From Mytilus galloprovincialis (taxonomy: Eukaryota > Mollusca > Bivalvia > Mytilida > Mytilidae): a DNA stretch of 64,000 nucleotides. The notes under the pieces were generated by a model. It saw nothing but the letters and a program-made list of their open reading frames with translations, ran no database searches and had not been told where the DNA came from. Of this stretch, positions 8,143-60,800 are shown one piece after another. The stretch is taken from positions 73,050,910-73,114,909 of the forward strand of contig NC_134839.1 of the NCBI RefSeq assembly GCF_965363235.1, written 5' to 3'. The position numbers and the translations under genes are program-made. How positions within the stretch are numbered: the first letter of the stretch is position 1; every line of letters begins with the position of its first letter.

Positions 8143-8365
8143 TATTTATTTAAAAAGTACAACAACACACATACAAATTTCTTTTGAGTTTGTTCGTTGG
8201 GTTGCTGACTATTTGCATGACGTTTTTCCAGACGCATTTCCATTATTCAAACGATAGAACGTACCAAAAAAATATTTGAAAATCCTATTACTATATTATA
8301 CCGGTATAAAAGACATTAATAGCACTTGTAACATAATACTGAGCTGATGAATTAGCCACGGGCAT

Positions 8366-8554
8366 AAAAGAGGGGCGAAAGATACCAGAGAGACATTCAA
8401 AGTCACAGATCAAAAATAAACTGACAACGCCATGGCTAAAAAAACAAAAGACAAACAGACAAATAATGGTACACAACACGAACCCCACCAAAAACTGGGG
8501 GTGGTCTTAGGTGCTCCGGAAGGTTAGGCAGATCTTGTTCCACATGTGGCACCC
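8366..8554 (-). repeat. 3' tail of the Penelope-like family with cctcttttа end
   Basis: Read on the minus strand it begins at gggtgccacatgtgg, passes through aggtgctccggaag (plus-strand reading) and the ccatggc block, and ends at the gaaagatac/cctcttt terminus. It matches the 3' tail that follows the reverse transcriptase at 33.9-34.6 kb. A 5'-truncated copy. Confidence 0.7.
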
Positions 8555-22954: not shown

Positions 22955-24880
22955 TTATGACTTTAAACTGTCCAAAGTTTTACTAATGTAGGGATCAACC
23001 TGATAAAAGCAATCACCAACCAGTATTTGTATGTTATCGTTAGACGATAACTCTGTGAAGCAGAGGCCCGGGAAAGTAAAACTTAGATATTCATTTATAT
23101 CAGTTATGTATTTATTACGGATTGAGGAGAAGCCAGAACACTCTAATAGGAAATATTCAATAGACTCTTCGGAATTAAATAAACACATTTGGCAAGTGAG
23201 ACTCTCGCTAAGATTCATCCTATACAAGACTTTGTTTACAGAAAAACAATTTGTTCGTATTAACAGTTTGAGTCTTGCAGACTTAAAGTCCAGCAAGTTC
23301 GTCAGATATGGTTGCCTTCCTTGTGCAAAGTTAAATTTTGAGAAAATATTTAGACTACTTTTATCATTTATTACTTGATATTGCCATCTCCGGACAAACC
23401 TTCCAAGAAACTGTTTGAATATATAAGAGTTGACATTCGAGTTATAAAACTGATCCAGACCAACCATATTGAATAAATTGATCATATATTGTGGATAGTC
23501 CCATCCCCTTTGAGGCTTTAAGGACTTGAGCTCTTCAAATACAATTCGGCATAATTTACTTGAGTCAAGGCCTTGAATCCTAGCAAAATAAGACACCCTT
23601 TGTCTATCAAGAAAATTGTTTATTGGCTCCCATCCCAAATCTAGGAATAAAGCAGAATTTGGAATATTCATCTTAGTATTAAAAATCCGTTTCGCGGTTT
23701 TATATTGCCATGTTTCAAGTATATGTTGACTAGAAGCGGATGACGGTAGCCATACGGCACACCCGTGTGCTAGAGAAGGACGGATGACCGAGTTCCAGAG
23801 AGCATCCCCAAAAGATATGCAATTAAAAGATCCGTGTTAATTAAGTAGCTTAGTCATATAATTCAGTTTGCGCTCGAAAGTATCTTCAAGGAAGCTATTA
23901 AACCAAGAGTTCCAAATGGTGCAGTTGAAATCATCCCTTCGTAAATTTTATGGACGCCATCACGAGTTGGTTGATCGTTATGGAATAACCGTTTCACAAA
24001 TGATATTGAATATGTTCCTTACGTCGTAACTACACCCCATTCCCTTTCATGAATGTGACCTACCGAATTAGACTATTTACCGGATTTGTAATCACATAAG
24101 CAACACGACGGTGCCACATGTGGAGCAGGATCTGCTTACCCTTCCGGAGCACCTGAGATCACCCCTAGTTTTTTGTGGGGTTCGTGTTGTTTATTCTTTA
24201 GTTTTCTATGTTGTGTCATGTGTACTATTGTTTTTCTGTTTGTCTTTTTCATTTTTAGCCATGGCGTTGTCAGTTTGTTTTAGATGTATGAGTTTGACTG
24301 TCCCTTTGGTATCTTTCGTCCCTCTTTTAAGAAATGATTGATAAGGTAAGCAAAAGTCAAAGAGCGGGTAAAATAAACTCCCAAACATTTAAATTCATTA
24401 GTCTCGTCCTAATGCTCATTTCCTAGGTACCATTTCTTAGTTTTATCTAAACGTTTACCTACTATTAAAATTCTAGATTTGTATGGGTTAAACTTTAAAT
24501 TCCACTTAGATGCAAAGTTAGCTGTTATATCCAACAGACACTGTAGTTCCTTCTCGGGAAGTTCGATAAGGACTACATCATCAGCAAACATTAAACAGTT
24601 CAAAATTTGTGAGGAGAACTCGACGCCAATATTACTGGTTTCAAGCATTTCTGTGAGGTCATTCATTAAAACAGAAAAAAAGTGTTGGAGACAAAACACA
24701 GCCTTGCTTAATGCCAAATTCTTGGTCGAAGAAACCTGTTTCACTAGCACCAAACAAGACTTTATTAGATACATTGCTATAAAGAGATTTGAGCAATTTC
24801 CAGCACTTGCCTTGAATGCCATTTTTCCACAAAAGATAGAAAAGGCCATCTCGCCAAACTCTATCAAAAGCCTTGTTTAA
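22955..24880 (-). mobile_element. LINE-type retrotransposon, 3' part, split by a later insertion
   Basis: On the minus strand, 24867-24333 encodes the palm of a non-LTR reverse transcriptase with the catalytic block FADDVVL, then NLKFNPYKSRILIVGKR and KCLGVYFTRSLTF. After an interruption, coding resumes at about 23890 with TFERKLNYM, DALWNSVIRPSLAHGCAVWL and, from 23671, a C-terminal domain containing CQMCLFNSEESIEYFLLEC, which resembles the zf-RVT region. In-frame stops occur near 24407 and 23838, so the copy is dead. The sequence 24331-23888 between the halves is a Penelope-like tail on the other strand. Clade (Jockey/CR1/RTE type) is not decided. Confidence 0.8.
23888..24331 (+). mobile_element. 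5'-truncated Penelope-like element nested in the LINE
   Basis: Begins with ggaagctattaaaccaagag, identical to the reverse transcriptase C-terminus at 34.48 kb (RKLLNQE), continues through KSSLRKFYGRHHELVDRYGI, then the 3' tail with tgccacatgtggagcaggat and ends at cgtccctctttta. Both flanks are LINE sequence on the opposite strand in continuous order, so it inserted into the LINE. I could not define a target-site duplication. Confidence 0.75.
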
Positions 24881-25752
24881 AACTTTTCAGAATATTGAAT
24901 AATACTTAAAAACTCCAATCAACACTTTATATACTGTATGTATTTTATGATAGAATCACATTAAATCTTGAGAAAATATCTGACGATTCATGTAGAATAA
25001 AATAATCAAACACTTGAACTTAAGATTGAAAACAATTGTTGTTGGGAAGTTTTTATGCATAATGACGTAAAATCTTGAACGTTTCTGAAAAGGGGGAATA
25101 AAAGTCAAACAAGGTACATGTCATTGAATATAACCATGACTTTACATGTATGAATTTGATGTGTCCGAACTTTTTTTCTGGATTAATCTTCGCATGGAAC
25201 TCCCAAACAAAATTAATTTGAACGCTCTGAAATACTTAAGGAGTTAAATGTGCAAAACATACCTTGAAAAAGGATATCTGCAAACCCAACAGGTACAAAA
25301 TCACTAATTCATAGCCTCATTGTATTCTATATCAAATTCTGCAATTTCATGCATTAATTGTTACTTTGTCTTACATTCAATTAAAGCGGCAGTCATTTCA
25401 TGACAACACTGTATCATATGCTAATTTGTACTGAATAATTCAACATCCCTTAAGTTGCTTATTAGAGACTACTGGTTCCCGGAAGTTTGATAGTACATTG
25501 TACAAAACAGGTACTTCTGATATGAACAGTAGGACAACATTAGTATGCCCTTCTATGAAAATGTTATATACATCTTTATCAAACAAAAGAAACTTTTAAC
25601 AAAGGTTCTACAGTGATCCCATGTCCTCAGGCTTTCATTTCGATACAAAAACTACCCAAATATTTTACCTATTGATCGACCGTCCCTGAATTTGTGGTTT
25701 CATACCAACAACTAGTCATGGGAGGGTCTTCAAACTTCATAGAGTGTTAATG
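24881..25752. other. no gene recognised
   Basis: AT-rich sequence between two retroelement copies. No supported exon and no clear repeat. Confidence 0.4.
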
Positions 25753-25966
25753 GTGCACATGTGGAGCAGGATCTGCTTACCCTTCCGGAGCACCTGAGAT
25801 CACCCCTAGTTCTTTGGTGGGGTTCGTGTTGTTTATTCTTTAGTTTTCTATGTTGTGTCGTGTGTGCTGTTGTTTGTTTGTCTTTTCATTTTTAGCCATG
25901 GCGTTGTCAGTTTGTTTTAGATTTATGAGTTTGACTGTCCCTTTGGTAACTTTCGTCCCTCTTTTA
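25753..25966 (+). repeat. 3' tail of the Penelope-like family (cctctttta end)
   Basis: From gcacatgtggagcaggatct through gccatggcgttgtcagtttg to ttcgtccctcttttat. Nearly identical to 56.04-56.27 kb. A truncated retrocopy. Confidence 0.75.
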
Positions 25967-26377
25967 TCTGTGAGTAAGAGATTACCATTTTCCTATAATT
26001 AGAATACAACTTCAATCGAAAAGTAAAAGACTAAATATGAAATTGCTATAAATTGCAGATGTGAATAAAAAATCAAAAATATCATATTATTGCAATTGGT
26101 ATAATGTCATTGCATTTAAACATTCCAAACACATTATTTTACATGGCATTTCGAGTAAATCTAACACAAAGAGATTCAGTAAAGTATAATGTATCACTTC
26201 GGAAAACATTGAATTACGTATCATGCATCTGAACCGATAATGTGAATGTTTTAAATCAAAAGTTCTTGATATGAAAACATACTGTTTTATTCACATGTTT
26301 TCAATTATTGCGTGAACAAAAATCACATTGATAAGGCTGAGATCTGCTGATGATTCTGTATGATGTAAACTGGTTTC

Positions 26378-28479: not shown

Positions 28480-28760
28480 AAAATCTGGTTAATTTCTTTA
28501 AAAATAAGACGTCTAAGAATGATGGCAAAAGAAGTTTTTAAAATGTAACACAAATAGTCATCAATTCATCTCCATGATATTATGAATTTTAAAAATGTAC
28601 CTTACTCTTTTAGAAAGCTAGATACATTTGAAGTACCACAGGTGAGAGCAACACAATTTGGACTTCATTCCTGGACCTACACTCTGGAATGAGCTGCCTG
28701 ACGCGATACGAGCGCAGTGGAACCTGAACCTGTTTAACAGTATGATTAACAACTAGAATA
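28480..28760 (+). repeat. LINE C-terminal fragment, copy 1
   Basis: Includes a frame reading FIPGPTLWNELPDAIRAQWN, resembling the C-terminal block of some non-LTR reverse transcriptases. Frames before it are broken. The same 280-base segment recurs at 29190-29470. Confidence 0.6.
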
Positions 28761-29189: not shown

Positions 29190-29470
29190 TAAAATCTGGT
29201 TGATTTCTTTAAAAATAAAACGTCTAAGAATGATGGCAAAAGAAGTTTTTAAAATGTAACACCAATAGTCACCAATTCATCTTCATAATACTATGAATTT
29301 TAAAAATGTACCTTACTCTTTTAGAAAGCTAGAGACATTTGAAGTACCACAGGTGAGAGCAACACAATTTGGACTTCATTCCTGGACCTACACTCTGGAA
29401 TGAGCTGCCTGACGCGATACGAGCGCAGTGGAACCTGAACCTGTTTAACAGTATGATTAACAACTAAAAT
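29190..29470 (+). repeat. LINE C-terminal fragment, copy 2
   Basis: Nearly identical to 28480-28760, including the stretch ctggaatgagctgcctgacg. The two copies are about 710 bases apart in the same orientation with a tandem repeat between them, so a local duplication is likely. Confidence 0.65.
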
Positions 29471-29744
29471 ATTTTTAAGAAACTCTAATGCAAAAATAAT
29501 TAGGATGGAGCGGTCGTATGTAAATGCAGTAGATGTGTAGGGCATTGGAGACAAGGGGTGTGTGAATTCTTTGGCGAGCCCTTAATAAACCTTGCAAATA
29601 ATCTTAAGTATTATGATCTGTTTTATGTTTTCTTATCCCAGGCATAGATTACCTTAGCCGTATTTGGCACAACATTTTGGAATTTTGAATCCTCAATGCT
29701 CTTCAACTTTGTACTTGTTTGGCTTTATAAATATTTTGATATGA

Positions 29745-29788
29745 GCGTCACTGATGAGTCTTATGTAGACGAAACGCGCGTCTAGCGT
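29745..29788 (+). ncRNA. hammerhead ribozyme 1 (type I, minimal stem III)
   Basis: Order of elements: stem I strand GCGTCA, core CTGATGA, stem II GTC-ttatgta-GAC, GAAA, stem III of two pairs (A-U, C-G) around loop GCGC, cleavage triplet GTC ending at 29782, stem I strand TAGCGT. All core residues of the family are present. The A in TAGCGT gives one C-A mismatch in stem I compared with ribozyme 3. Confidence 0.85.
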
Positions 29789-29888
29789 ACTAAATTATAG
29801 TCCTGGTACCTTTGATAACTATTTACACCACTGGGTCGATGCCACTGCTGGTGGACGTTTCGTCCCCGAGGGTATCACCAGCCCAGTA

Positions 29889-29908
29889 GTCAACACTTCG
29901 GTGTTGAC
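29889..29908 (+). other. perfect hairpin with TTCG loop, unit 1
   Basis: GTCAACAC-TTCG-GTGTTGAC: eight pairs closed by C(UUCG)G, one of the most stable RNA tetraloops. It is conserved in the next unit at 30244-30263. Confidence 0.75.
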
Positions 29909-30099
29909 ATGATTATCAATAATGTGGTCATTTTTATAAATTTCTTGTTTACAAAACTTTGAATTTTTCGAAAAACTAAGGATTTTCTTATCCCAGGCAT
30001 AGATTACCTTAGCCGTATTTGGCACAACATTTTGGAATTTTGGATCCTCAATGCTTTTCAACTTTTTACTTGTTTGGCTTTATAAATATTTTGATATAA

Positions 30100-30143
30100 G
30101 CGTCACTGATGAGTCTTATGTAGACGAAACGCGCGTCTAGCGT
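30100..30143 (+). ncRNA. hammerhead ribozyme 2 (type I)
   Basis: Same core, stems and TAGCGT variant as ribozyme 1. Predicted cleavage after 30137, exactly 355 bases from the first site. Confidence 0.85.
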
Positions 30144-30451
30144 ACTAAATTATAGTCCTGGTACCTTTGATAACTATTTACACCACTGGGTCGATGCCAT
30201 TGCTGGTGGATGTTTCGTCCCCGAGGGTATCACCAGCCCAGTAGTCAACACTTCGGTGTTGACATGAATATCAATAATGTGGTCATTTTTATAAATTTCC
30301 TGTTTACAAAACTTTGAATTTTTCGAAAAACTAAGGATTTTCTTATCCCAGGCATAGATTACCTTAGCCGTATTTGGCACAACATTTTGGAATTTTGGAT
30401 CCTCAATCTCTTCAACTTGTACTTGTTTGGCTTTATAAAATTTTGATATGA

Positions 30452-30495
30452 GCGTCACTGATGAGTCTTATGTAGACGAAACGCGCGTCTGGCGT
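30452..30495 (+). ncRNA. hammerhead ribozyme 3 (type I, full stem I)
   Basis: Core CTGATGA and GAAA intact. Stem II GTC/GAC, stem III with loop GCGC, triplet GTC ending at 30489. Stem I strands GCGTCA and TGGCGT form six pairs, two of them G-U. Best-formed copy on the plus strand. Confidence 0.87.
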
Positions 30496-30539
30496 ACTAA
30501 ATTATAGTCCTGGTACCTTTGATAACTAATTATACCTAC

Positions 30540-33500: not shown

Positions 33501-33864
33501 CTGATGCATCGTAGATTTTTTTGTTTTATACTTTTTTTATTTTGATTTACGTTTTAGTCTGATATAAGTCGAGTATAAGAATATGAGTCAAATTGGTGAA
33601 CATGAATTTGACAGCTCATGTCCCTGTAACTTCAAATTATAAATCAGATTCTGTAAACAAGAAAAATATACACAAAAGATGTCAAAATTCACAAACAATA
33701 TTAGTCAACACAACAGACTATACCATGCAGCACCCGATTCTTCGGGAAAATATGCGTACAAAACAAAGACTCAACCAAAATAACGATCAACACATGGTTA
33801 AGAAATGTAGAATTTGTGCTTGGACAATATGTATTCAAACATTCCAATTGCTTTTCTAGACTAT
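30540..33864. other. no gene recognised
   Basis: Mostly unclassified AT-rich sequence. The stretch near 33.0-33.4 kb, starting aaagggacactagttacgag, has the look of a DNA-transposon-derived repeat, but I cannot define its ends. No exon with splice support was found. Confidence 0.35.
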
Positions 33865-35072
33865 TGTCTTAGGAAGGGATAAAACCTACTTTGTAAAGGA
33901 TCACTCTGATTCAAATAAAAAATTTACTGAAACTGACATTATCAAGATGCTTGATTTCTTAATTGAAAACATATTTGTTACGTTCGGAGGACGTGTTTTA
34001 CAACTAACTGTCGGCATTCCAATGGGAACAAATTGTGCCCCTCTTCTTGCCGACTTGTTTATTTATTATAATGAGGCTGACTTCATACAGGAACTTCTTA
34101 GGAAGAAAGATAAGAAGTAAGCGATATCCTTTAACTCTACGTTCCGCTATATAGATGATGTGCTTTCACTAAATAATTCAAAATTCGGTGACTATGTGGA
34201 ACGCATCTATCCCATCGAACTAGAGATAAAGGATATTACAGAAACAGTTATGTCGGCCTCATATCTTGACTTACATCTAGAAATTGACAATGAGGGTCGG
34301 TTGAAAACAAAACTTTACGACAAAAGAGATGATTTCAGCTTTCTAATTGTGAACTTTCCATTTCTTAGTAGCAACATTCCAGCAGCACCTGCATACGGGG
34401 TATATATCTCCCAATTGATACGATATTCCCATGCTTTCATTTCCTATCATGATTTTGTTGATAGAGGTTTGCTGCTCACAAGGAAGCTATTAAACCAAGA
34501 GTTTAAAATGGTGAAGTTGAAATCATCCCTTCGTAAATTTTACGGACAGCCATCACGAGTTGGTTGACCGTTATGGAATAACCGTTTCACAAATGATATC
34601 GGATAGGTTCCTTACGTCGTAATTACAACCCCCTTCCCTTTCATTAATATGACCTACCGAATTAGACTATTGACCGGATTTGTTATTACATAATCAACAT
34701 GACGGGTGCCACATGTGGATTAGGATCTGCTTACCCTTCCAGAACACCTGGTATCACCTCTAGTTTTTGGTGGGGTTCGTGTTGCTTATTCTTTAGTTTT
34801 TTTATGTTGTGTCTTTGCTACTTCACAAAAAGTATTTTCAGATATATTCATAAAAAATATCTACACAATAATTGTTTTACGGAAATTAATCATTCATCCG
34901 GAATGACTTTCGGGATTCTTTTATTATCTAGTCAGAAACGAATTGCGGTCAAGTGACCTCACACGACTTTTCTGTTCCTCGTGTTTGGACAATATTTTTT
35001 GAAGTGTTATGGCGTTGTCAATTTATTTTCGATTTATGAGTTTGACTCTGGTATCTTTCGTCCCTCTTTTAA
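33865..35072 (+). mobile_element. Penelope-like element, 5'-truncated, with RT and 3' tail
   Basis: Encodes the reverse transcriptase core in one frame: [20 protein letters not shown], then FRYIDDVLSL with the catalytic Asp pair, SASYLDLHLEI, KTKLYDKRDDF, and a C-terminus RGLLLTRKLLNQEF. A TAA at 34118 interrupts the frame between the two catalytic blocks, so this copy is dead. The 3' tail follows with gtgccacatgtggattagga and ends at cgtccctctttta; its middle (about 34812-35010) differs from other copies. Assignment to Penelope-like elements rests on the block order and is from memory, not a search. No GIY-YIG endonuclease domain is visible. Confidence 0.7.
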
Positions 35073-42954: not shown

Positions 42955-43076
42955 AAAAGAGGGGCGAAAGATACCAGAGGGACATTTTAACTCGTAGATC
43001 GGAAATAAACTGACAATGCGATTGCTTAAAATAACAATCAGACAAACTATAGTACACAAGAAATCACATGGAAAAC
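42955..43076 (-). repeat. partial 3' tail of the Penelope-like family
   Basis: Starts at aaaagaggggcgaaagatac (complement of the cctctttta terminus) and is lost after about 120 bases. Confidence 0.6.
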
Positions 43077-43144
43077 TGAAGAACATGCAACCTCAACTCT
43101 AAAAAAGAAAAATGAAATGATACAATCATTATCCTCCAACTAAA

Positions 43145-47783: not shown

Positions 47784-47862
47784 GTCCAAAGTTGTCCAAG
47801 ATCTTGCTTATTAAACTTTCGAACAGTAAAAGTTATCAAAGGTACCAGGATTATAATTTAGT

Positions 47863-47906
47863 ACGCCAGACGCGCGTTTCGTCTACATAAGACTCATCAG
47901 TGACGC
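47863..47906 (-). ncRNA. hammerhead ribozyme 4 (type I, intact)
   Basis: Read on the minus strand: GCGTCA, CTGATGA, GTC-ttatgta-GAC, GAAA, C-GCGC-G, triplet GTC, then TGGCGT. Stem I has six pairs. All core residues are present. Confidence 0.86.
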
Positions 47907-48216
47907 TCAAATCAAAATATTTATAAAGCCAAACAAGTAAAAAGTTGAAGAGCATTGAGGATCCAAAATTCCAAAAAGTTGTGCCAAATACGGCTAAGGT
48001 AATCTATGCCTGGGATAAGAAAATCCTTACTGTTTCGAAAAATTCAAAGTTTTGAAAACAGGAAATTTAGAAAAATGACCACATTATTGATATTCATGTC
48101 AACACCGGAGTGTTGACTACTGGGCTGGTGATACCCTCGGGGACGAAACGTCCACCAGCAGTGGCATCGACCCAGTGGTGTAAAAGTTATCAAAGGTACC
48201 AGGATTATAATTTAGT

Positions 48217-48260
48217 ACGCCAGACGCGCGTTTCGTCTACATAAGATTTATCAGTGACGC
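48217..48260 (-). ncRNA. hammerhead ribozyme 5, inactivated
   Basis: Same layout, but the core reads CTGATAAATC in place of CTGATGAGTC. This changes G8, which is needed for catalysis, and removes the first G-C pair of stem II. Predicted inactive. Confidence 0.75.
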
Positions 48261-49296
48261 TCAAATCAAAATATTTATAAAGCCAAACAAGTAAAAAGTT
48301 GAAGAGCATTGAGGATCCAAAATTCCCAAAAGTTGTGCCAAATACGAGTAAAGTTTGCACAACGGCTTATGATATAATTACAAGGAGAATAAATCCTTTA
48401 AAAATAGTTGATCGACACTGTTTTATTTTAACTCAGCCGGTTTATTACTGATACACACCCATACACACCTTTCAAATAGCTTTCATAAAACTCTGGACCA
48501 CTTACAAAATTGGATCGAATGGACGCCCCGTGCTGCGGTAGGGTACAGTAGAACGCTGAAAGACAACCTGTCCACAGTTTCACAATACACTTTAACAATT
48601 ATTATTTTTGCTGATGTTGAATATCAAGTAGCCAAACGTTTTTATTTTTCCCGATGCTGTATAAAATTATACGCATTAAAATATTCTTACTTAATGAAGA
48701 ATAACATTTGAACATAAATTATGCATTTGTTATATTAGCTTTCTTTCAAATAGAAGTTACAATTGAAAACTTACCTTTTCATACATTCCTTTATATTTAC
48801 ACCCGAGCACACTTACTATAGGGTTGTGTATTTTACGTGTCCTATATATAGATAGAGATAAGTTAAATGCTATTCAAATATATTATCAGTTAATAAAGTA
48901 AGTTGATAACCACACTACAGTTGTGTTTTGTAATATTATGTTTGGTCATGATCATTTATATAAAGATAAAGACTAACAAAATAAGTCCTACATTACCGGA
49001 ACCCATGTTGTTCAATATTAAGGTTTTAAGCTATGACACTAGTTATGACAGTAGTAGTACTAGTACTAGAATTAATGGTTGCAGTACTTCCAGTAATGTA
49101 ATTGAAGTAGATAATGCTTTAAAACATATTTTATTTTACATAGCTCGGTGTGTTTGTATTTATTTCTTCTAAAAAATAGACGCACTCGATTAGTTATATT
49201 AAATGGAAAACATCCGTCGATTCTATTCTTCAAATTTATATGTAATTCATTTTTATATCTTCATGCTAAAATAATTATTGGTTAAAGTCATATGTA

Positions 49297-49400
49297 AAAG
49301 AGGGACGAAAGAAATCAGAGGGACAGTCTAACTCAGAGATTGAAAATAAACTGACAACGTCATGGCTAAAACTAAAAAGACAAACAGACAAATAATAGTA
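49297..49400 (-). repeat. partial 3' tail of the Penelope-like family
   Basis: aaaagagggacgaaagaaat (complement of the terminus), then ctgacaacgtcatggctaaa. Truncated. Confidence 0.6.
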
Positions 49401-49556
49401 TGGTTCCATGTTATATTGAAGAAAATGCAAATGTTATAGACACAGGTAAACAAATATTGTATATCTAATTATATATGTTGACAACTTGTTTTGCATTTTA
49501 CAAAATGTTCAGCCAAAAAAATAATTACCCGTGCCTGAATATACATTACTTTAAAC

Positions 49557-49737
49557 AGGGGCGAAAGATACAAGAGGTCAAACGCATAGATCGAAAATAA
49601 ACTGACAACACCATGGCCAAGACAGAAAAAAAAACCAGACACATAATAGTACACAAGACACAACAACGAAAACTAAAGACTAAGCAACACGAACCCCACC
49701 CAAAACTGGGGGTGATCTTGTGTGCTCCGGAAGGGTA
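49557..49737 (-). repeat. 3' tail of the Penelope-like family
   Basis: Starts aggggcgaaagatacaagag and reaches ccaaaactgggggtgatctt and tgctccggaagggtag. Same series as 8.37-8.55 kb. Confidence 0.65.
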
Positions 49738-51764: not shown

Positions 51765-51965
51765 TTAGTCAACAACATTAACGGTACCAATTTTCTTGCA
51801 CCAGATGCGCATTTCGACAATACATGTCTCTTCAGTAATGCTCGTGGCCAAAATATTTGAAATCCAAAGCTTATATAAAAGATGAAGAGCTATAATCCAA
51901 AAGGTCCAAAAAGTATAGCCAAATCCGTGAAAGGAATCAGAGCTTTGCATAAGCGAGATACATTC
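51765..51965 (-). mobile_element. diverged hammerhead-bearing repeat
   Basis: A single repeat unit whose layout parallels the retrozyme arrays: hammerhead, then (minus strand) sequence corresponding to ccaaaatatttgaaatcc and gaagagctataatccaaaag on the plus strand. It shares words such as aaaatattt and gaagagc with the 355 bp family but is otherwise different. Confidence 0.55.
51798..51841 (-). ncRNA. hammerhead ribozyme 6 (diverged family)
   Basis: Minus strand: stem I strand GCATTA, core CTGAAGA (position 7 is free in the family), stem II GACA-tgtat-TGTC, GAAA, stem III A-U and U-A around loop GCGC, triplet ATC (NUH rule satisfied), stem I strand TGGTGC. Stem I pairs over six positions with two G-U. 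Compared with the 355 bp family, stem III changes C-G to U-A and stem II is different but paired, so the fold is kept by compensating changes. Confidence 0.78.
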
Positions 51966-52302
51966 GTTAATTTATAATAATAACAAGTTTAACCAAGATT
52001 TGTATAAAAAAAAATATTGTTACATTGAAAATATCATTAATTTGTTTTTGATGCACTCACCTACCTTCTCTGAGGCTCATTTAAACTTAGTCACTAGGGA
52101 GAGGACGTCACTTATGTTGTTATAACTTTTGTCCAATCCCTTTTGCTACTTTTGCAAAGAAAACATGTTTAAACTAAACTCAGTCACTGTATGGTAACGT
52201 GTCCTGAAAAGTGATTCCTATATTCGTACTCAGAATGGAATATTATCTTGTATCATACTACCTTGATCTCAAATCCAGGATCTGTTTGTTATCTGAACTT
52301 CT

Positions 52303-54820: not shown

Positions 54821-57800
54821 CTTTGGAAAAAAAAAGTTATTCAAAATAATTGTTGCTGTTTCGTCCTAGTTCTTTCGCAATTAAATAATTTCATATTGAT
54901 AATGGATCCTGATTGGTACAATATTTTCTATTAGTCACGATAATATCTAGACTCGGCTATTTAGAAATTGGAGTGAGGTATAGACGCTTTTGTCAAAGAT
55001 TGGTTGTTATTTCACAACTCATGTGGTATTACTGTTAGATTGCAATAACCGATTATATCATTTTATTTAAAGATTACTTTTTATAACATGTATAAACCAC
55101 TCCATCTTTGTGCTTATATAGAAATCATGTGACTAATAGTATTGAAAGAAAATACCGAAGAAGGTATAGTTTTAAGTGTTAACGTCTACACAATTTCGAA
55201 CCTTGTTTTATGATATGTCTGCAGTACGTTTGCTTGATCAAGAAATTTCATATACCATAGCTTGCTGTTCGATGTGAACCAATACCCCGTTTTGAAGACC
55301 GTACCTTGACCTTGACTTGGATGGAGAATTGTCTTATTGGCACTCATACCACATCTTCATTTATCAAATAGGATGTCGTTTGTGTATATTTCAGAATACA
55401 GATACATTAAGGTTTGACAACATCGATGTTTCATTTTAATTCCAATATTTCTGTGACATTATAGCGTAAACCAGTTTCTTCAGATACAAACCTGGAACGG
55501 TATTATCTAATATGAAGCCAAGCATTCCACCAACAAACATAGCTGTACTCAATAGTACTGTTAATACTTGGTCTAGTTCAGAATTACCTGCAAAAATAAA
55601 ATTATAATTAATTTGAACAAGAAATGTAGCTTTTTTGCACTTGGAGATCATGGAATTAGTGATAATGTTATATACATTTTGGCACAAAAATAAAACTGAT
55701 GCAAAATGTTTACATCGCATTTCATTTTGGTTTTTTCTTCACATTCCTTGTCCCTTCATTAGTTTTGAGGTCTAAACCGAATACTGAAATTTACTTATAA
55801 TCGCTTCGAAACAAATGGAACGCATGGTGCGAGTGTCACGTTTTATTCTGTTTCTTAGGTTCTCTAAATGGAATGAAATCTCTCTCTCTGTCATCATGGA
55901 AGATCTATTGGGGCATTTCATATTATGCGTGTGGTTAACGTTTTAGAATTAGCAACAAGGTTATTGGAGTGTTACTTGTTGAATCATCTCTATGACAGGT
56001 AAATATTTTATATTATTGCTAAGTCTACTTTACATAAGCAACACGACGGGTGCCACATGTGGAGCAGGATCTGCTTACCCTTCCGGAGCACCTGAGATCA
56101 CCCCTAGTTTTTGGTGGGGTTCGTGTTGTTTATTCTTTAGTTTTCTATGTTGTGTCGTGTGTACTATTGTTTTTCTGTTTGTCTTTTTCATTTTTAGCCA
56201 TGGCGTTGTCAGTTTGTTTTAGATTTATGAGTTTGACTGTCCCTTTGGTATCTTTCGTCCCTCTTTTACAACTCATAATTTGGTACTGATGTTTTTTTCT
56301 ATTAACTGTAAACTGCTAAAAATGATATGAGTCAAGCCGACTACAGCCAAATGCAAATGTTACACCTTACTATTATTTTAGTTTTTGTTTCAAACTTTTC
56401 AATCATGGTAATTTCAGTCCTTAGTTTTGTTATTTTATTTCTAAAACAATGATTCTTAAAAATTTAATTGAGTAATCAATCAAAATCAATCGCAAAAAAA
56501 AATGGAAATATTATCAACAAGTCGATATATTATCACAATACAAATATAAACGTAAAACAATATTTGGATTTTTCAACAGTAAATATTTGATTTCTTTTCA
56601 TGTCACATATTTGATAACCATACTAGTTAATCATCTAAAGTATTAAATATTCGAACACGTAATGTTATTTATTTTTTTAGTGACTTTCATTTTTGAATTT
56701 TTCCTCAGAGTTCAGTATTTTAGTGATTTAACTTTTTTCTTACTGAAAATTTTGGTAAAAATCAAAACAACATATATATATTTAGATATAAAATATACTT
56801 TTACCTGTGTCTATAACATTAGCATTTTCTTCAATGTAACGTGGAACCATAAGACCTATCAAGAGTGACGAGCCAATAATACACAGATTTCTACCAGATG
56901 ACAAATCAACAAACTGAAGGGTAGAGAGACCAACTGATGTTACCATTCCAAAACTTAGAACAACAGTACCACCAAGTACAGGATCCGGAAGTAAAGTCAG
57001 TACAGCACCTACTTTTCCAAATAGGCCACATATTAAAAATATTATTCCAGCATATTGAAATACTCTTCTACTTGCATTCTGGAAAACAAAATTGCATTTT
57101 GTACATATCGTTGTAAATTTTTTCCAATTCAAGCTTTTAAATTCTATGCTTAAATTCTTTTCAGTTTGACATTACTATATTTTCTCATAGTATTGGATGC
57201 CATCATAAATTTTCTTTTTATGCACCATAATGAACTTCAGACATGTATTATAATTGTGTATAAAATTTTAAAGTTGTCTCCGTCGAAATAGAACTAGGTG
57301 TGTGCTTGTGTAATATGTAAAAAAAATACATAATGTTACCTTTGTGAATCCTATAGCACCAACATTTTGGCTGTATGAGGTAGTTGCTCCTCCTGATCCT
57401 ACAGCACCTGATAGGATACTTCCAAATCCTTCCATTGCTATCCCGCGATTAATCGCATGGGCAGGAGGAGGAGGAGCACCTGATATTCTTGCACATGCGT
57501 AATAGTCTCCAACAGATTCAATAATCGAGGTAAATGTAGCTGCCATCATTGCCATGTAACTTGCAACACTTAATGTTGGAAGTCCCCACTGTCCTAGGTA
57601 GACAATACAAAGACATATTAAATCAGATTCCAAAATGATCCTGTCTATTTAGTTTAATAAAGATTATAGACTATTTTCATATTACCGACAGGACATCCTC
57701 GGACACGGTCAAGTAAGAGTAACCAAAATTAAGTGCAATCAAACATATATAATCGGTGCAATTTTTGGGGAAAGTTTAAAATTATGAATGTTTTTGTGGT

Positions 57801-60800
57801 GTATAGAAAAATAAAACAGTTAAATTCCCCCCAAAGTTATACCGATTAAAAACTTCTTTACACTGCTTGTACTTGACCGAATACCAGAATGTCTAACCAC
57901 AAAGAAGATAACTTGTCGAAAAAAAGTGGGTAATAACAAATAATAAAATTGAGAATGGAAATTGGGAATGTGTCACAGAGACAACAACCCGACCATAGAG
58001 GAGACAACAGCAGAAGGTCACCAACAGGTCTTCAATGCAGCGAGAAATTCCCGACCAGGAGGCGTCCTTCAGCTGGCCCCTAAACAAATATATGTATACC
58101 AGTTCAGTGATAATGAACGCCATACTAAAATCCAAATTGTACACAAGAAACTAAAATTAAAAATAATACAAGACTAACAAAGGCCAGAGGCTCCTGACTT
58201 GGGACAGGCGCAAAAATGCGGCGGGGTTAAACATGTTTATGAGATCTCAACCCTCCCCCTATACCTCTAGCCAATGCAGAAAAGTAAACGCATAACATAA
58301 CAATACGCACATTAAAATTCAGTTCAAGAGAATTCCGAGTCTGATGTCAAAAGATTTAGCCAAAGAAAATAAACAAAATGACAATAATACATAAATAACA
58401 TCAGACTACTAGCAGTTAACTGACATGCCAGCTCTTTTATCATAAATTTTAGTATTAAGCTTTCCGTTAATGATATAGATATCAAAATCGAGGAAAGGAA
58501 AGGACAGTGGTCATTGTCAGTATTAGCTTTATTTAAAGTAAGTTCAACAGGATAAATTTCTTTAGTATACATACTGAGGTCGTCATTTTTGAGAGCCAAA
58601 ATATCATCCAAATATCTAAAAGTATTATCAAATTTGTGTATCAGATGTTGTTTCCATGGGTCTTTGCTGATTTTTGTCATAAATTGTAAGTCATAGCAAT
58701 ACAAAAACAGGTCCGCAATAAGTGGTGCACAGTTAGTCCCCATTGGAATTCCGATAACCTGGCGATAGACGGAATCTCCAAAGCGAACAAAAATGTTATC
58801 TAGTAAAAATTCAAGGGCAGATAGAGTACCAAAGCATGTCCAATTGACATAGTTTTTTTGTTTATTGCTACTAAAAAATTACCTTAAAGAGTTTGAACAT
58901 AATATATTCACATTCTGACTTTTTAAATGCCCAATTAATCAGATGTGTGAATTTTTTCTTAATGAGAATGTGAGGACAAGTAAAAAGTAAAATCATAAAA
59001 TGTATTGATAAGAAATACATAAACCAGGTAAAAGATAAATGTCAAAAATGGTTGACTCATATTTTTTTTTATCCTTTCAAGTTTATTTTGGTTGTTAATA
59101 AATAAAACGTATTAAGTTTAAAAGTAAGTAATCTTACCTGGATATGGAAAAAAGAACCATTTTGCATTGCTTACTACATGAAGTCTAGCATCTGTCCTCG
59201 CTTTGTATTCTGGTAGTGTGGAATTCGACGTAAATACATCGCATTCGGTCAATATTGCAGTTATTGACCAAGACAGTATCACTGCAAGAATCACCTAGAA
59301 TATATAAAATTAATAAGTTAAAGACAAGTTTCATTTTGCATTTGGTCAGTTATTTTAGAAACCTTTTAAAGTAAGAGAATGAGCACCTTATCAAGATGTT
59401 GACACCGAACATCACTGAGAAACATTATTTGCCTGTTTTTTTCAAGTGAATTGGTTCACATGTTTCATGTTGTGGCTTTAATAGCAGACAATTCTATTTT
59501 TTCTCTTTGTTGAAGGCCGTCCGATTGCACACAGTTACTTACATCAACTGTGTTTGATTATTGGTGTAAAATTGTATCTTTGGAATTCATACCACATATC
59601 AATGTTTTTATTCTTTATTTAGTTTCATTGATAATGGAAACATGTTTTGTCAAAATCCCCTTTGAGTGGAATATTAATGTTACAGTTTAACCTTTCTGTG
59701 CATGTATATATAACGTTTACCAAGTATAAAACGTAAAATCACAAAATTACTGACCTCCGAAGAAAATTCAAAACGGAATGCGGAATTTTACAGTATTTTT
59801 ATCATTCAATTGTCTTTTGAATATCAGTGAAGAAACAGCAATGTTTTGAGACATTTGTAAATATAACTAATAAATGAAAATGAAGACTGATATCAATCAA
59901 ATAATGAATACTTACTGGGAACAGTCGGAAAACTGGAAAATGAGAGATGAAACATTTTTTCTTTGTCGTCCATGAAGGTATAGGACAGGAAATATTACGT
60001 AGATATAGAGAAAACAATAACAGGAAAAATATTGTTCTGAAAACATAACATGTATTTGTGATTTTAGATAGGTAAATGTTTGTAAAAGAAAAATGTACCT
60101 TCATAAAATAGAAGTTTGTCAATCTTTTTTTTTATTATTAAGGATTAATCTCTATTACTGCAAAGTTATGTTTGATGTGTATTTTATAATTTATTTTTAA
60201 ACGATTATCTGTGTGTTAATTTTTGCGCCTGTCCCAATTCAGGAGCCTCTGGCCTTTGTTAGTTTTTAATTTTAGTTCATTTAAATATTTCGGAGTTTAG
60301 TATGACTTCCATTATCACTGAACTAGTACACATGTTTGTTTTTTGGCCAGCTAAAGCACGTCTCCGTGTGCGGAATTTTCACGCTGTATTAAAGACCCAT
60401 TGGTGACCTTCTGCTACTTTCTGCTCTTTGGTCGGGTTGTTGTCTCTTTGACACTTTCTCCATTTCCATTCTTAATTTTATCTGAAGGAAATCGTTTAAG
60501 ATAATTTCCTGATTGTGTTAATCACCATTCATGCTTAGGTTTGGTTAAGGTTGAAACAATTAACAAGTCTTACAAGATTGATACTCCCCAGTGGATTTTG
60601 CAAAAGTTCAAAGCAACGTCGATCAGGGATAGTCCTACCAAAGTGATTGTTGGAACAACTGTTATTGGTCCTATATACTGCAACAGCACGCCCAATATCC
60701 CAGTACAACCAATCAGAACTTGTGTTACAGATGCAACAATTATGCCTCCTTGAATCTATACAAACAAGTATAAATATGAAGATATGTAAAACCTTGCATT

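Follow-up and report, generated by a model that had tools for sequence, protein, structure and literature searches.

A hammerhead retrozyme of Mytilus galloprovincialis and a putative Naiad-type Penelope-like element carry a similar hairpin beside a common 3ʹ end

The stretch of Mytilus galloprovincialis DNA considered here, 64,000 nucleotides in length and hereafter called the window, contains a short tandem array carrying hammerhead ribozymes, related copies on the opposite strand, and scattered remains of a Penelope-like element (PLE). The plus-strand array is recognized by Tandem Repeats Finder with a period of 355, 2.6 copies and 96% matches. The core CTGATGA-N13-GAAACGCGCGTC occurs in it three times without a mismatch (29751-29782, 30106-30137 and 30458-30489), and the two results together confirm the tandem array with three hammerheads that an earlier note on this DNA had described. 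With up to three mismatches allowed, the window yields six core matches against 0.02 expected, and none of 100 shuffled sequences reaches six. Each of the three predicted cleavage sites has the triplet GTC, and the distances from cut to cut are 355 and 352 nt, in agreement with the unit-length cuts proposed previously. Stem II (GTCT/AGAC), stem III (AC/GT) and the loop GCGC also are as originally given. The further claim that each unit holds a complete type I hammerhead stands for the core, which is exact in all three copies, but not for stem I, where copies 1 and 2 read TAGCG for TGGCG and thus carry a C-A mismatch; only copy 3 is fully paired at this position. The two full units have GC contents of 37.7 and 38.4%, and no open reading frame (ORF) of 130 or more amino acids is found within the array. 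A 261-bp direct repeat lies just upstream (28500-28760 and 29211-29471, 97% identical, 711 bp apart), its position 28500 being the edge of the stretch searched.

On the basis of topology, core sequence and a comparison between two families, rather than of the Rfam cut-off, we classify the window copies as type I hammerheads. The Rfam model RF00163 gives the three copies scores of 33.0, 28.5 and 28.5 bits (E = 6.6e-6, 2e-4 and 2e-4) against a gathering score of 34, and no Rfam family attains its gathering score anywhere in the window. The earlier note had named sub-threshold covariance scores in every copy as grounds for abandoning the assignment, and formally this is the outcome, with the best copy falling short by one bit. 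We do not count it as a refutation because the E-values range from 2e-4 to 6.6e-6, because the ribozyme core is matched 39,434 times in the genome, and because a second family of sequences preserves all three stems. The genome count refers to a 1.385 Gb assembly of 331 contigs searched with the ribozyme pattern at up to three mismatches, for which the reversed control pattern gives no match. Among viral contigs there are no matches to the ribozyme pattern or to the hairpin pattern discussed below, and bacterial and archaeal genome contigs contain four single matches to the ribozyme pattern.

Comparison of the first family with the second reveals that stems I, II and III each contain a base pair in which both partners have changed, 4 of the 12 pairs in all. 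In the corresponding alignment, 12 cells carry double changes versus 5.0 after shuffling, and the covariation score of 0.425 compares with a shuffled mean of 0.211 (reached by none of 500 shuffles) and with at most 0.190 for slid versions; this set comprises 7 distinct sequences of 9, the shuffles ignore relatedness, and the contrast between the two families provides most of the signal. Two further measures are unremarkable: 261 of 500 shuffles match or exceed the count of pairs with double changes, and 494 of 500 do so for the count of further pair types. Plain minimum-energy folding does not choose the hammerhead (z = 0.03 and -0.16) and is uninformative.

The original census of ribozymes was correct for the three plus-strand copies and missed three more on the minus strand, two of which lie in a second array and one in a monomer of the second family. 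The hammerhead of this monomer is not listed by Rfam at E values up to 1, and the 3ʹ end of the monomer is not sharply defined, as the sequence near the hairpin is too diverged. A third family, represented at four other loci (L017, L030, L062 and L069), has a similar ribozyme and a different spacer, GGTATCTATGATGAGTTTAT, before the hairpin. The coordinates of all retrozyme and PLE features are collected below.

Table 1. Retrozyme and Penelope-like element features of the window
Feature	Position	Strand	Remarks	Score
Retrozyme array, 2.6 units	29628-30536	+	First unit 5ʹ-truncated, full units 355 and 352 nt	
Type I hammerhead, copy 1	29745-29788	+	Predicted cut after 29782; C-A mismatch in stem I	RF00163 28.5 bits
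Hairpin common to retrozyme and PLE	29827-29890	+	Starts 44 nt past cut; proposed signal recruiting reverse transcriptase	
Type I hammerhead, copy 2	30100-30143	+	Predicted cut after 30137; same stem I mismatch as copy 1	RF00163 28.5 bits
Hairpin, second copy in array	30182-30245	+		
Type I hammerhead, copy 3	30452-30495	+	Predicted cut after 30489; stem I fully paired	RF00163 33.0 bits
Array 3ʹ end	30524-30536	+	Up to 46 nt past last cut, where next hairpin would begin; proposed start of reverse transcription	
Second array	47826-48354	-	Same family as first array (family 1); same 3ʹ end	
Hammerhead in second array	47863-47906	-		33.0 bits
Hairpin of second array	48116-48179	-		
Hammerhead in second array	48217-48260	-	Core mutated	21.5 bits
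Monomer of second retrozyme family	51766-51981	-	5ʹ-truncated; 350-nt unit	
Hammerhead of family-2 monomer	51798-51841	-	Compensated stems	
Broken Naiad-type PLE copy (putative)	33864-35071	+	End of reverse transcriptase ORF and pseudo-LTR; interrupted at 34813-35009; 3ʹ end at shared point	
PLE 3ʹ fragment	23887-24329	+	Stops just before hairpin position	
PLE 3ʹ fragment	25752-25967	+	Stops just before hairpin position	
PLE 3ʹ fragment	56032-56268	+	Stops just before hairpin position	
PLE 3ʹ fragment, diverged	8364-8554	-	76% identity; same end	
PLE 3ʹ fragment, diverged	42955-43091	-	77%; same end	
PLE 3ʹ fragment	49295-49400	-	86%; same end	
PLE 3ʹ fragment, diverged	49553-49737	-	82%; same end	

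The likeness to animal retrozymes proposed in the earlier note is supported, in that architecture, unit size, low GC content and ribozyme type match the mussel retrozymes described in the part of the 2020 report available to us (Cervera and de la Pena, PMC7229834). The non-LTR retrozymes of metazoans, as presented there for M. galloprovincialis, resemble the present sequences in their type I hammerheads, ribozyme families, tandem arrays and high copy number. The accessible text mentions about 5000 type I hammerheads in repeats of 350-390 bp, whereas we count 39,434 matches, although both the assembly and the criteria differ between the two figures. It also describes a cloned mussel repeat that cleaves at about 0.1 per min and circular RNAs (circRNAs) detected on Northern blots. 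Retrozymes of this class have no LTR, PBS or PPT, occur as linear and circular RNA, and carry target-site duplications that exceed 4 bp when there are any. Their units are repeats of about 170-400 bp with low GC content, and the window units of 355 and 352 nt agree with both traits; the window family, as is typical of the class, is dispersed, non-autonomous and devoid of a long ORF in its own genome. For the array studied here, self-cleavage, circularity and mobility would follow from this resemblance.

Insertions of the retrozyme end at a nearly constant point on their 3ʹ side. We mapped homologous islands in the window and at 63 non-overlapping loci (70 fetched, of which 7 overlapped and were dropped), using the natural window units as query; the loci follow the order in which exact core matches were listed and lie in the first 15.4 Mb of a single contig (C1). 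Seventy-three islands have a ribozyme core and lie wholly within their locus, forming a sample anchored on the ribozyme; 61 of the 73 stop between +36 and +46 after the cut, whereas their 5ʹ ends vary. These 61 islands range from 83 to 1199 nt, with 36 of 355 nt or less, 14 of 356-710 nt and 11 longer ones. Clustering of this kind has a probability of about 1e-79 if ends were distributed uniformly and independently. Some of the 12 islands that end elsewhere belong to families 2 and 3 (L030, L045, L046 and one of those at L069), and are placed outside the interval because the family-1 query stops early there. True exceptions that carry a family-1 ribozyme are found at L007, which ends at +19, and at L037, which ends at the cut itself. 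Judged by eye, and from two ends each, family 2 (L004 and L045) and family 3 (L017 and L069) terminate a few nucleotides before the hairpin.

The same boundary is visible in counts that are not anchored on the ribozyme. By an approximate, mismatch-tolerant count, the 32-mer spanning +8 to +39 is matched 28,175 times in the genome versus 14,857 times for that spanning +44 to +75; the latter stretch is the better conserved of the two in 25 full units, yet it is rarer genome-wide. This step in abundance agrees with the fixed end observed in the anchored sample. Matches of at least 7 nt are present at 20 of 65 junctions compared with about 12 expected, only one exceeds 9 nt and it falls in a local repeat, and the matches do not sit consistently at the insertion ends. 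We found little sign of long target-site duplications, and a modest excess of 7-8 nt matches is without explanation. No strong insertion motif is apparent.

Directly after this fixed end, at +44, begins a conserved hairpin of 64-71 nt that is also present in the PLE. In an element located elsewhere in the genome (L075), 71 nt match the retrozyme hairpin with 86% identity in the same orientation (E = 1.5e-18), and the hairpin sits directly upstream of the ATG of the element's ORF. Both hairpins are predicted to adopt the same fold except for two outer pairs, at -28.8 and -27.6 kcal/mol (z = -2.5 and -3.5); the second hairpin copy in the window has z = -1.7. We evaluated covariation in 45 distinct sequences (44 retrozyme-like and one from the PLE) of 46 listed, excluding one row with an insertion in a C run. 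The minimum-energy fold gives 13 cells with double changes versus 3.9 when shuffled, with a score of 0.091 versus 0.066 (slid versions at most 0.050). An alternative fold with a three-way junction gives 14 versus 3.7 and 0.115 versus 0.070 (slid versions at most 0.059). The signal derives mostly from the terminal stem, in which G-C, A-U, U-A and G-U pairs all are found. By a different measure the minimum-energy fold has four pairs with double changes, a number reached in 138 of 500 shuffles, and slid versions have up to eight. RNAalifold predicts 12 pairs only, covering part of the hairpin. The two folds appear to fit the sequences about equally, and the terminal stem is common to both. A GGTAYC motif, noted by eye and without a test of chance occurrence, precedes the hairpin by 21-25 nt in the PLE and in all three retrozyme families.

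Copies of the PLE end at the equivalent position. The window holds a broken reverse transcriptase gene in pieces at 33860-34567, and all eight window pieces that include pseudo-LTR sequence end at positions 928-931 of the element (-5 to -2), where the hairpin starts at 933. The 3ʹ sides of 20 copies were sampled from among 150 listed, with the window's own copy and four list places skipped, and in all 20 the first match stops between -5 and +6 of the hairpin start, beyond which the flanks differ; these copies are close relatives and therefore represent nearly one subfamily. Second PLE pieces at two of the sampled loci end at -3 (L094) and at -329 (L089), and another locus (L090) holds a family-2 hairpin.

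The element L075, a relative of the broken gene in the window, has an open frame of 1000 amino acids and is arranged in tandem copies at about 3370 bp. Among five relatives of this protein, a GIY-YIG endonuclease domain exceeds the Pfam cut-off in three (amino acids 129-226), and the reverse transcriptase domain RVT_1 lies downstream of it in all five, below the Pfam cut-off in each case (E = 2e-6 to 7e-3). L075 itself falls below the Pfam cut-off for both domains (GIY-YIG, E = 0.034; RVT_1, E = 3.5e-4). Between the two domains is a CxC motif whose cysteines, C431 and C433, are invariant in all eight aligned sequences. We found no hammerhead in L075 at E values up to 10 and no CTGAYGA on the element strand. 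Naiad elements have a CxC motif between the domains and are not known to carry a canonical hammerhead, and the clade, described by Craig et al. in 2021, reportedly has an N-terminal GIY-YIG domain and a C-terminal reverse transcriptase. Going by this domain order, L075 would be a Naiad-type PLE. It differs from the retrozyme, which has a hammerhead and no long ORF, in that it encodes GIY-YIG and reverse transcriptase domains with the CxC motif, forms tandem copies with pseudo-LTRs and has no detected hammerhead. The PLE fragment has no sequence match among solved structures.

Other traces of retroelements are present in the window. An ORF at 24409-24867 (minus strand) matches a reverse transcriptase (PF00078, E = 1.3e-7) and belongs to a retroelement fragment of another kind; a neighbouring ORF at 22955-23671 has no Pfam match. 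A reverse transcriptase fragment with a GTNCAPL motif at 58324-58878 (minus strand) is without an alignable pseudo-LTR and matches L075 only over short stretches (70-78% over 64-125 nt), and it probably derives from a different PLE family.

We consider it likely, from the placement of the hairpin and the ends that adjoin it, that the Naiad reverse transcriptase uses retrozyme circRNA as its template and starts synthesis beside the shared hairpin. In the mechanism that we propose, a retrozyme array represents one insertion of a non-autonomous non-LTR retrozyme. Each hammerhead would cut array transcripts into RNAs of 350-355 nt, which would then be closed into circles. The PLE protein would bind the hairpin and reverse transcribe from a point immediately on its 5ʹ side, some 40 nt past the cut, and the enzyme might then run around the circle for anything between a fraction of a lap and tens of laps. 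A fixed start combined with a variable number of laps would produce insertions that are alike at the 3ʹ end and differ at the 5ʹ end, with tandem ribozymes wherever more than one lap is completed. Because the start signal would lie outside the stretch that is copied first, the template must come round again. Put differently, the signal is 3ʹ of the start site, and therefore a linear monomer cut by the ribozyme could not give a full copy that bears the signal, whereas a circle or a tandem PLE transcript could. After one lap the enzyme would meet the hairpin again, such that longer products regain both the signal and a second ribozyme. In copies of less than one lap the hairpin would be incomplete or missing, and such copies could not release a unit. 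If true, this mechanism would account for the association of hammerheads with tandem structure in retrozymes.

The most extensive array that we encountered belongs to family 2 (C1:433592-448317; L096-L098, G000) and contains 43 hairpins spaced every 350 bp over more than 14 kb. All 41 of the cut-to-cut units that were read, in three stretches, are identical. By eye, the array has the usual 3ʹ end point and a 5ʹ end that is truncated shortly before the first ribozyme. A single event of rolling-circle reverse transcription would explain this array simply, and a recent DNA amplification or an assembly error could mimic it. On balance we lean towards a fuller reading in which a self-cleaving circle parasitizes the telomerase-like Naiad reverse transcriptase through its start hairpin. 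This hairpin would be located right after the start site, an order usable only by a closed circle or a tandem RNA, and several families in the genome would use the same one; a single insertion may record one such event, in which a 350-nt circle was traversed more than 40 times with no copying error.

A PLE of Anolis carolinensis, Poseidon, offers the closest comparison. In the available part of the report on its reverse transcriptase (PMC11167929), synthesis begins internally, at sites that match the ends of genomic copies, and a hammerhead lies upstream of the start, as in the arrangement proposed here. Poseidon differs in having a C-terminal endonuclease and in starting inside the ORF, within an AC-rich stem loop, whereas the start proposed here is just upstream of the ORF and adjoins the shared hairpin. 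The portion of the 2020 mussel report that we could consult (PMC7229834) does not settle the identity of the enzyme that mobilizes animal retrozymes or how a circle becomes a template; it names PLEs as a strong candidate only, and describes neither a constant 3ʹ end nor an RNA signal in common. The retrozyme family has thus already been published, and the partner and the start signal appear to be new as far as we could find. In the literature searched, which comprised listings together with parts of PMC7229834 and PMC11167929 and passages of PMC7761336, we met no description of a Naiad partner, of the hairpin in common or of the constant 3ʹ end, and this constitutes a weak negative. A defined hairpin, start site and partner ORF make the mobility of retrozymes directly testable in vitro.

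Either a circle or an uncut multimer could serve as the template, and we favour the circle. In the second case, the PLE reverse transcriptase would begin at the same point but read linear multimeric transcripts of an array, which we regard as unlikely. It is a real alternative because, in the accessible text on the Anolis PLE (PMC11167929), ribozyme cleavage is not needed in vitro: insertion is unchanged in ribozyme mutants, and no reads end at the cut. Copying of a multimer also would accommodate the variant that units 1 and 2 of the window array share and that has no counterpart in unit 3. Given that this stem I change is confined to two units, the window array does not fit one untouched rolling-circle product; conversion or unequal crossing-over at a later time, or else a multimeric template, would be required. 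Family-1 units from the same array are 91-100% identical (nine pairs, mean 96.4%) versus a mean of 89.1% between arrays. In a tally made without a control, 75 variants were noted within arrays; 15 of them are seen again in at least two other arrays, as multimeric templates might predict, whereas the remaining 60 are not and speak for the circle, as do the uniform units of the long family-2 array and the mussel retrozyme circRNA that is described as abundant in the part of PMC7229834 available to us.

The circle might instead be mobilized by some other retroelement, such as a hammerhead-bearing PLE of the Penelope/Neptune type or a LINE, and the likeness to the Naiad hairpin would then be a relic of common descent. 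Mussels do carry PLEs with atypical hammerheads, according to the accessible text of PMC7229834, but retrozyme and Naiad copies stop at matching positions with respect to the hairpin, the terminal stem of which has been kept through changes on both sides, and we judge this explanation quite improbable. That the repeats are ordinary satellite DNA spread by recombination, with a hammerhead arising by chance, seems highly improbable despite the existence of tandem arrays, including the one of more than 14 kb with uniform units. The insertions are dispersed on different flanks and more than half of the 61 with the common end are no longer than one unit, and recombination does not predict fixed 3ʹ ends together with variable 5ʹ ends. 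We also rejected, as having virtually no likelihood, a second hammerhead on the opposite strand of the unit (CTGGTGATACC...GACGAAACGTC on the minus strand), which would permit replication through both strands in the manner of viroids. The minus strand of the hairpin does place GACGAAACGTC between CTGGTG and CACCAG. However, CTGGTGA does not qualify as a hammerhead core, the GAAA-like loop lacks conservation and the last pair of the stem that borders it can be G-C, A-U, U-A or G-U, and Rfam lists no antisense hammerhead at E values up to 10.

Elsewhere in the window, between 38745 and 42385, short tandem arrays with units of 25-29 bp were observed, some of which include palindromes resembling TAGAACTGTTCTA and others GACAGCATCAACCAAAACTGACC.
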